NCBI GenBank assembly: GCA_002816575.1
Contig: MUCI01000023.1
Coordinates: forward strand, 1 to 64,000
Direction of reading: 5' to 3'
Origin: SAR202 cluster bacterium Casp-Chloro-G2
Lineage (GTDB): Bacteria > Chloroflexota > Dehalococcoidia > Lucifugimonadales > UBA3495
DNA length: 64,000 bases
Position numbers and translations under genes: made by a program. Below are positions 968-3,637 of this stretch, piece by piece. The first letter of the stretch is position 1. Every line of letters starts with the position of its first letter. The notes under the pieces are model-generated. The model had not been told where the DNA came from, made no database searches, and was given only the letters and a program-made list of their open reading frames with translations.

Positions 968-1963
968 CTAAACCAGCTTCATCTGGAAGCCAGCGTCCTG
1001 CTTATGGCCGCGGGCGTTCAGGTGGACGGCCGGGTAGCCCAGCTCCCTCAGGCGGGCGGCAAGCTCGGGGAAGCCGTTAACGGTGTAGACCTGCTTGGGG
1101 CCGACCGCTTTCACGTACTCCACCAGTTCGTTGAAGTCGGGATGATCGCTGTAGGGCAAACTGGCATCGGCGGCCCAGCCCCACGGAGTGTTGCCGCCCA
1201 CCGCCCAGCCGGTCAGTTCCAGGGTCCGCTTCCTTGAGAACCCCTTCAGGACCTCGCGCTTCTTGCCCGGTGGAAACAACAGCACCCAGCCGTCGGGCCA
1301 TTCGCCCTCGAACATCCGCACGTGGCCCGGAAATTTCACACCTGCGTCCAGGTAGACCTGGGTTCCCAGGTAGATGCTCTCCTCGGCCATGACGTCGAAC
1401 CCCTGGGCCAACAGGTGGTGGAGAATCTCTTGTGACTTGCCCAGCCGCCAGCCTTTAACCACCGGCCTCTCACCGCGGGACAGCCACATGCGAAGGGTCT
1501 TGTAGGCGGTGTCTAAGACCTGTTCTTGCTCCGGGAAAACGTACTCGGGCCGGCCATAGGTGCTCTCCATGACCAGGGTGTCGCACGGCACCACCTCCAA
1601 CGGCTCGTTGGTGGGGCTGGGGCGGCTCTTGATGTCGCCGGTGTAGAGCAGCCGCTCTCCCGTCTCCTTGGACACGATCAAAGCCTGAGCGGAACCCAGG
1701 CAATGCCCAGCGGGATGCAGGGTCATGGTGTAGGACGGGGTCTCGTATGGTTGGTGGTAGTCGAGGAGCACTGGCGCCGATCTGTCGAGGTAATCGCCCA
1801 GCAGATTGGCCGTGTTGGGGGTGAGCACGGGACGGGCGTGGCGGCCGGTGTGGTCGGAGTGGGCGTGGGAGATCAGGGAGAATTCGCGCTTCCTGGTGGA
1901 GTCCAGCCAGAGGTCAACTTCGGGCAGGTAAACGCCGCTTTTGAACACTGCCTGCACAGACAC
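968..1963 (-). CDS. MBL-fold exonuclease, DNA-ligase-associated/beta-CASP type
   Basis: A predicted metal-dependent nuclease of the metallo-beta-lactamase superfamily, 331 residues. The HxHxDH motif appears as HAHSDH near residue 33. It is followed by HPAGHCLGSAQ, a GDIK loop and an ESTYGRPEY segment, all typical of the ligase-associated exonuclease and SNM1/Ysh1-like branch. The C-terminal SDHPDF motif supplies the last conserved His/Asp. No ligase or helicase gene, the usual partners, is adjacent. The ATG at 1963 is used here; a GTG two codons inside has an equally good upstream G-rich stretch. It is convergent with the symporter gene. A nucleic-acid processing role is inferred from the family. 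Confidence 0.8.
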   Translation of the reverse strand: MSVQAVFKSGVYLPEVDLWLDSTRKREFSLISHAHSDHTGRHARPVLTPNTANLLGDYLDRSAPVLLDYHQPYETPSYTMTLHPAGHCLGSAQALIVSKETGERLLYTGDIKSRPSPTNEPLEVVPCDTLVMESTYGRPEYVFPEQEQVLDTAYKTLRMWLSRGERPVVKGWRLGKSQEILHHLLAQGFDVMAEESIYLGTQVYLDAGVKFPGHVRMFEGEWPDGWVLLFPPGKKREVLKGFSRKRTLELTGWAVGGNTPWGWAADASLPYSDHPDFNELVEYVKAVGPKQVYTVNGFPELAARLRELGYPAVHLNARGHKQDAGFQMKLV

Positions 1964-2164: not shown

Positions 2165-2626
2165 ATGCCAGCAGAGATTGGCGATGTGGCCCCCGATTTC
2201 AAACTTCCCTCCCCGGATGGGGACGTCTCACTGAGCGACTACAAGGGCAACAAGACGGTTGTTCTTTCGTTCCACGTATTTGATTTCACCTCTGGTTGAA
2301 CCACGCAAGCAACCTCGTTCCGTCAGGAGTACAAGCGGTTCGAGGATGGAAATGCCCAGGTCCTGGGCATCAGTTGCGACACCGTCCCATCCCACCGGGC
2401 CTGGAGCACGGCTCTGGGCGGACTGCCTTATCCCGAGCTATCCGACTTTCACCCCAAGGGCGAAACTTCCAAGGCCTACGGATTGTGGAACGAAGAGCGC
2501 GGGGCCAGCAACCGGGCTGTGATCATAATCGACAAAGAGGGTGTGGTCCGGTTCCGGGAGACCTATCAGCCGGGCATCCTGCCTGACCCGAGTGTCATCA
2601 TGGATTTCGTGGAGGGCCTTGGTTAA
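2165..2626 (+). CDS. Peroxiredoxin with in-frame TGA at the peroxidatic position (probable selenoprotein)
   Basis: Reading through the TGA at 2297-2299 (codon 45) gives a 153-residue AhpC/TSA-type peroxiredoxin. The active-site stretch is FDFTSGUTTQ, where U is the TGA; it falls exactly where the family TxxC motif has its peroxidatic cysteine. Both sides are clean family sequence: AEIGDVAPDFKLPSPDG before, and GISCDTVPSHRAW, LPYPELSDFHPKG and AVIIIDKEGVVRF after, with 108 open codons to the TAA. Thiol peroxidases with Sec at this position are known, so UGA is read here as selenocysteine. The ATG has AAGGCGGG just upstream. A standard gene caller would split or miss the gene. A Cys-codon mutation or sequencing error is the alternative. 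Confidence 0.8.
2297..2343 (+). promoter_or_regulatory. Possible SECIS region after the TGA codon
   Basis: Bacterial selenocysteine insertion needs an mRNA hairpin just 3' of the UGA. By eye, bases 2296-2302 can pair with 2337-2343 (seven pairs, one a G-U). Inside it, ACG-AA at 2303-2308 pairs with TT-CGT at 2318-2323 around a C-C mismatch, closing a nine-base loop. The loop is nearer the UGA than usual and lacks an obvious consensus G/GU apex, so the assignment is weak. Confidence 0.3.
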
Positions 2627-2791: not shown

Positions 2792-3637
2792 TTAGCTGAT
2801 GCCGGTGATTCGCTGCACCTGGTAACGCAGGGTTCCCTTGGGGACGTTGATGGTCACTTCATCGCCAACTGAGCGGTCCAAAAGGGCCTGACCCACGGGG
2901 GATGTGGTGGATATCTTGCCCTCTGTAACGTCGGCCTCGCGGACATCGACCAGGGTGTAGGCCACGGTCTTGCCCGAGTTAGTGTCTTTCAGGGTAATCT
3001 TGGCGCCGACCGAGGAACGCGCAACCTTGGAGGAGGCGCCCACCGGCAGTATCTGGGCGTTGTTGATGCTGGCTTCCAATTCGCGGATACGGAGTTCGAT
3101 GATTCCCTGTTGGTCTTTTGCGGCGTCTAGAGGAGCGTTTTCCCGGAAGTCTTTGTCGGCCATGGCCCGTTTGATGTCTTCAAGAACGAGGGCCCGCTGG
3201 TCTTTTAAATCTTCCAACTGGGCAACCAAGCGGTCATAGCCTTCTTGGCTGAGTTGGGAACCGGAGTGAATAGCACGGGAGGCGGAGCGGGTGGAGGTTT
3301 TAGAAGCTCCGGTGGTGCGGCGGGTGCGGGGGACTCGGAGGTGGGATGCCAAGCCATTGTCGATCCAACCCTGGTCCTTCCAATAGGCCAGGAACACTTT
3401 TACTGGGGCCAGACGGTTCGCGGACTCTGATCCGCCGAGACCGATCTGTTGAGCGTATTCTGCCACTTCAGAGGGCGAGAGCTCGGACACCTTTCGTTCT
3501 CTGCCACACCAGGCCACGAACCGGCCTAGTTCCTGGTGGCTCTGCTGGACTGTTTTGGCAGATTTCTTTGCCGCCACAAATTGGGTCAGAGCTTCCGAGA
3601 TTGAAATATTTGTTGAAATGCCTTGCTCAGTCGCCAC
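2792..3637 (-). CDS. greA: GreA-type transcript cleavage factor fused to an N-terminal SAM-like (integrase core-binding) domain
   Basis: A 281-residue fusion. Residues about 10-100 resemble the SAM-like core-binding domain of tyrosine recombinases (ISEALTQFVAAKKSAKTVQQ, then RLAPVKVFLAYWKDQGW). A basic Ser/Thr-rich linker covers 101-125. Residues 127-195 are the GreA coiled coil, with the acidic tip DKDFREN carrying the Asp and Glu that position the catalytic Mg2+ in RNA polymerase. Residues 203-281 are the FKBP-like domain. GreA alone is about 158 residues. The start is GTG with GGAGG eight bases upstream. There is no recombinase catalytic domain, so the added domain probably contacts nucleic acid or protein. 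GreA identity is firm; the role of the extra domain is unknown. Confidence 0.88.
   Translation of the reverse strand: MATEQGISTNISISEALTQFVAAKKSAKTVQQSHQELGRFVAWCGRERKVSELSPSEVAEYAQQIGLGGSESANRLAPVKVFLAYWKDQGWIDNGLASHLRVPRTRRTTGASKTSTRSASRAIHSGSQLSQEGYDRLVAQLEDLKDQRALVLEDIKRAMADKDFRENAPLDAAKDQQGIIELRIRELEASINNAQILPVGASSKVARSSVGAKITLKDTNSGKTVAYTLVDVREADVTEGKISTTSPVGQALLDRSVGDEVTINVPKGTLRYQVQRITGIS

Follow-up and report, generated by a model that had tools for sequence, protein, structure and literature searches.

The gene at positions 2165-2626 of the window (the whole stretch of DNA analysed here, 64,000 nucleotides from the SAR202 cluster bacterium Casp-Chloro-G2) almost certainly encodes a selenoprotein, with selenocysteine (Sec) at codon 45. 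The whole explanation put forward here, which we regard as quite probable, has three parts: (i) a Sec peroxiredoxin of the AhpE type; (ii) a hairpin, P2, acting as the SelB-binding SECIS; and (iii) a second hairpin, P1, acting as a spacer. Both the enzyme and the recoding system were already known, and it is the unusual SECIS geometry that constitutes the new part. The following features are referred to below:

2165-2626, + strand: putative Sec peroxiredoxin gene of the AhpE type, 153 aa with Sec45 (ATG at 2165, TAA at 2624-2626; from HMM and structure)
2297-2299, + strand: in-frame TGA at the peroxidatic position, in all likelihood read as Sec (conservation of the TGA in homologues; alignment to AhpE Cys45)
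2304-2378, + strand: P0, possible closing stem CGCAA/UUGCG, 2304-2308 with 2374-2378 (MFE structure of the window sequence)
2313-2345, + strand: P1, CCUCG-UU-CCG...CGG-UU-CGAGG, proposed spacer, compacting the RNA at the mRNA entrance of the ribosome (lower stem above null)
2352-2370, + strand: P2, 8-bp hairpin AUGCCCAG-GUC-CUGGGCAU, proposed SelB-binding SECIS (conservation against shuffling, covariation)
2655-2686, + strand: terminator-like hairpin 3' of the peroxiredoxin gene (13-bp stem, then a T-rich tail)

The reading frame 2165-2626 has one single interruption, the TGA at codon 45, which is followed by 108 sense codons. The preliminary description of this DNA had claimed that the TGA replaces precisely the peroxidatic Cys and that peroxiredoxin sequence continues beyond it, and both claims were borne out. 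When the TGA is read as a residue, the product matches Pfam AhpC-TSA (E=5.8e-37, residues 5-130), and the TGA aligns to Cys45 of Mycobacterium tuberculosis AhpE, that is, to the peroxidatic Cys. AhpE was also the best phmmer match (E=3.2e-29), ahead of every other peroxiredoxin, and the top 11 PDB matches retrieved by Foldseek with the AlphaFold2 model of the 153-aa protein (pLDDT 93.1) were all AhpE (TM 0.92-0.93). By fold and by closest relationship, the peroxiredoxin is of the AhpE type.

M. tuberculosis AhpE (PDB 4x0x, 1xxu), the best match in both sequence and structure, has the same fold and length and shares Thr42, a catalytic residue at position 45 and the active-site Arg (numbered 116 in AhpE and 117 here); the differences are the replacement of Cys45 by Sec45 and of Pro38 by Val38, together with the UGA recoding proposed here. 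Across the 58 Sec rows of the peroxiredoxin alignment, Thr42, residue 45 and Arg117 are invariant, while position 38, the usual active-site Pro, is occupied by Val (47 rows), Ile (5) or Pro (4), and the active-site motif reads V/F-D-F-T-x-G-U. Since Cys71 is common but not universal (45 of the 58 Sec rows), a mechanism with a single Sec and an external reductant appears the likeliest: Sec45, aided by the invariant Thr42 and Arg117, would attack the peroxide, and the oxidised Sec45 would then be reduced by an external thiol, a reducing partner that we infer. Sec peroxiredoxins with a TxxU motif are known from the Sargasso Sea and GOS selenoproteomes (PMC1088965, PMC2398784). They resemble the present protein in belonging to marine bacteria and in having Sec at the peroxidatic position of the TxxU motif; but the present gene is of the AhpE type, its active-site Pro is mostly Val and, unlike the SECIS of those surveys, the element proposed here does not directly follow the UGA.

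Both neighbours of the gene lie on the strand opposite to it: upstream, a metallo-beta-lactamase/RMMBL-type protein (window 968-1963, - strand) and, downstream, a GreA/GreB elongation factor (window 2792-3637, - strand). As an intrinsic terminator, the hairpin at 2655-2686 is only suggestive, given that shuffles yield a mean of 1.0 such site.

Scanning 84,980 species genomes for the peroxiredoxin gave 73 loci, and all homologues with at least 54% identity have a TGA at exactly codon 45, as do 54 of the 54 distinct SAR202/Dehalococcoidia-type homologues of the RNA analysis. Among related genomes, 59 of 60 match the peroxiredoxin, the closest matches having exactly one TGA each, and 245 genomes sampled from the class provided ten further orthologue-like matches, all with TGA. 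Because the same codon is TGA in independent public genomes, it is neither a chance event nor a sequencing error. The comparison of Sec and Cys at this codon, which the preliminary description had proposed, yielded only one Cys orthologue (L133), and it branches inside the Sec clade with a tree support of 100/95. Purifying selection is evident on both sides of the TGA, with dN/dS values of ~0.05-0.11 downstream of the SECIS region. Besides, TGA is the stop of 8 of the 37 long ORFs in the window; it is therefore an ordinary stop in this genome and the code has not been reassigned. Among the TGA-extended ORFs elsewhere in the window, none resembles a protein continuing through its TGA.

The existence of a Sec system in the genome, also part of the preliminary description, was verified for selD and not for selA, selB and tRNA-Sec, in an assembly that is a MAG of 66 contigs, 75.6% complete. 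The match to selD is strong. This selD (L088 1393-2439, - strand, G000:C22) contains a TGA/Sec codon of its own (LSHCAGUAAK), which is followed at 27 nt by a canonical SECIS-like hairpin. In the same MAG, the match to selA (54 bits, below the cut-off) resembles another PLP-type enzyme; the match to selB, also below the cut-off (190 bits, residues 1-265 of a 407-aa frame), resembles EF-Tu; and no tRNA-Sec was found, the matches turning out to be Ser, Trp, Leu, Gly and Tyr tRNAs. A lack of Sec machinery in the genome, named beforehand as evidence against the Sec reading, was thus observed for selA, selB and tRNA-Sec, only formally. Among 60 relatives, 51 have a selA and 52 a selB above the cut-off, most of the relatives without them being incomplete, and a canonical tRNA-Sec of 93 nt with a UCA anticodon is present in three same-genus genomes. 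The simplest reading of the missing selA, selB and tRNA-Sec is an assembly gap, since the hydrolase gene that adjoins selA in 7 of the 7 same-genus genomes tested is absent from this MAG too. In five same-genus genomes (G001:C12, G003:C60, G004:C10, G007:C64 and G010:C28), a Cys peroxiredoxin (FTGVC) is located ~18-21 kb from selB.

The Sec reading is, in consequence, supported by the conservation of a TGA at the catalytic codon in dozens of genomes, by the selD found here and by selA, selB and tRNA-Sec in same-genus genomes. A sequencing error, a pseudogene or a genome-wide reassignment of TGA would agree with the fact that selA, selB and tRNA-Sec were not found in the assembly, but such an origin is barely conceivable in view of the identical TGA in independent genomes, the purifying selection downstream of it, its use as terminator of long ORFs in the window, the complete Sec machinery of relatives and the absence from the MAG of the selA neighbourhood as a block.

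Regarding the insertion element, the bSECISearch model of bacterial SECIS elements comprises an apical loop of 3-9 nt, a stem of 4-16 bp, a G in the first two loop positions, an energy <= -7.5 and a distance of 16-37 nt from the UGA to the apical loop (PMC13188914); according to a review, a subset of bacterial SECIS elements fails this model (PMC13188914). The hairpin after the TGA had been described as a poor match to the SECIS consensus, which holds for the one directly after the TGA, whereas the one at 2352-2370 matches in loop, stem and energy and departs from the model in spacing. P2 has, like canonical bacterial SECIS elements, a 3-nt, G-first loop (GUC) on a stem of 8 bp, with an energy of -11.5 kcal/mol in the window gene, and 49 of the 54 members are within the energy limit; but its apical loop is 60 nt downstream of the UGA, about twice the textbook spacing and outside the 16-37 nt of the model, with a conserved hairpin in between. 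In the canonical range, a hairpin with E <= -7.5 is present in only 8 of the 54 members, and the best one in the window gene reaches -1.2 kcal/mol. The earlier suspicion of a divergent insertion element agrees well with a strongly conserved hairpin 60 nt from the UGA and a second conserved hairpin between them.

It might be argued that GC-rich codon usage and the conserved AQVLGI peptide produce the hairpins as by-products, Sec being inserted via another element: the region has 61.6% GC, the peptide determines some of the P2 letters (CAG GUN), and one Cys paralogue has a perfect P2. Nevertheless, P2 is perfect in 50 of the 54 distinct Sec homologues, while synonymous codon shuffling within each gene, a null in which peptide and codon usage are kept, leads to an expectation of only 4.2 (maximum of 11 in 300 shuffles). 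The same applies to the representatives with <70% identity, where P2 is perfect in 18 of 21 vs 1.08 expected, 0 of 2000 shuffles being as high. Compensatory changes, such as the replacement of G-C by A-U at columns 58-72 and of U-A by C-G or G-C at columns 57-73, equally speak against a by-product; for P1 and P2 together, 48 cells are altered on both sides, compared with 18.0 +/- 3.0 after shuffling and 9-25 with slid partners. RNAalifold, applied to the homologue alignment, recovers P2 and does not report P1, and an Rfam scan of 2100-2720 had no hit over the threshold and retrieved no SECIS family. A P2-type hairpin at 60 nt is found in 53 of the 54 Sec peroxiredoxins, a constancy of spacing that adds no separate evidence, since it follows from the gap-free protein alignment of that region.

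A perfect P2 is also nearly absent from Cys homologues. Sequence relatedness means that p-values overstate the following contrasts: (i) all pairs of P2 are intact in 63 of the 88 Sec homologues vs 1 of the 37 Cys homologues; and (ii) a canonical-distance G-loop hairpin occurs in 16 of 22 Sec relatives with an imperfect P2 vs 14 of 68 with P2. Among homologues with the peptide [AT]QVLG[IVL], in turn, P2 is perfect in 58 of 63 Sec vs 1 of 7 Cys sequences, which again argues against the peptide as its cause. The Cys orthologue L133 has lost P2 (5 of 8 pairs). In the Cys paralogue L199, the perfect P2 is read as chance. In any case, the by-product reading has already been largely refuted, and we consider it very improbable.

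P1 is 33 nt long, sits between the UGA and P2 and starts 13 nt after the UGA. In the 54 homologues, its lower stem forms 4.41 of 5 pairs vs 2.94 expected from synonymous shuffling (4.57 vs 2.92 in the representatives with <70% identity), and both-side changes occur at five pairs, but P1 is less regular than P2. Tentatively, P0 would turn the region into a three-way junction, with weak family support (3.39 vs 3.01 pairs). An alternative explanation accepts the selenoprotein and takes P1 as the SelB-binding SECIS, near the canonical distance, leaving P2 as an accessory for pausing or enhancement. Under this alternative, the start of P1 and a loop within the canonical 16-37 nt would be accounted for, as would the above-null conservation of the lower stem and the canonical-looking hairpin that 11 of the 54 members have there at E <= -5. 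We find it unlikely, though, as the P1 loop is variable and has no conserved G, within the canonical range the model rejects 43 of the 54 members, against a G-loop hairpin at the distal site in 54 of 54, and P2 is better conserved than P1 (99.1% vs 79.4% of cells paired). From the sequence comparisons, it is P2 that probably constitutes the SelB-binding SECIS, at a non-canonical distance.

With P2 as that element, SelB would bind this hairpin and carry Sec-tRNA-Sec to the UGA at codon 45. The ribosome tunnel covers ~11 nt of mRNA (PMC4513850) and, because P1 starts 13 nt after the UGA, the folded P1 would be situated at the ribosomal mRNA entrance, where it could cut the path between the UGA and the P2 loop to 27 nt, the SelD value, instead of 60 nt. 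Both SelB binding to P2 and the spacer role of P1 are what we infer from these comparisons. In same-clade SelD hairpins, whose spacing was found with the same script as that of the peroxiredoxin hairpins, the distance is 20-33 nt (27 nt in 18 of 28), and its equality with the shortened path is suggestive. The SelD SECIS of the clade (aggaccug-GUC-cagguccu) is a hairpin of the P2 type, with a GNN loop on an 8-bp stem, but differs from it in its spacing of mostly 27 nt and in lacking an intervening hairpin. In an acidobacterial homologue (L047), a P1-like stem of ~35 nt leaves ~25 nt.

We lean towards the existence of a type of bacterial SECIS whose SelB-binding hairpin is placed ~60 nt from the UGA, a distance that an obligatory hairpin between the two makes shorter; related Sec peroxiredoxins would have switched between proximal and distal elements, and the rule would be the folded distance. 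If this is true, the spacing rule of the standard bacterial SECIS finder misses a family of Sec peroxiredoxins, and the UGA-to-SECIS distance is to be measured along the folded RNA. As the same genomes use elements at 27 nt (SelD) and at 60 nt (peroxiredoxin), they offer a natural experiment on the route of SelB to the A site. Furthermore, Sec-based peroxide defence would be extended to a deep-ocean Chloroflexota clade; searches for SAR202 together with selenoprotein, in the library searched, and for Chloroflexota together with selenoproteome and MAGs found no paper.

Beyond this clade, Sec peroxiredoxins ~43% identical to the present one were found in acidobacterial gp4 contigs (L046-L060), mostly with P2 at 60 nt and with a different P1-like stem. 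In the tree, the gp4 Sec clade stands apart from the Chloroflexota Sec clade, and the tree does not resolve its origin. Since the two clades do not group, common descent of the distal element is only one possibility beside convergence or transfer. Three contigs labelled Proteobacteria and Ca. Entotheonella (L033, L035, L036) have a Sec peroxiredoxin nested among those of Chloroflexota, a placement due to either horizontal transfer or misbinning. Clustered peroxiredoxin-like ORFs (L226, G001:C40:22871-24767) that have an in-frame TGA in a UxxC arrangement probably represent further selenoproteins in a row. Finally, a divergent peroxiredoxin paralogue with 34% identity (L207, G047:C123) has a TGA together with a near-perfect hairpin at 60 nt.
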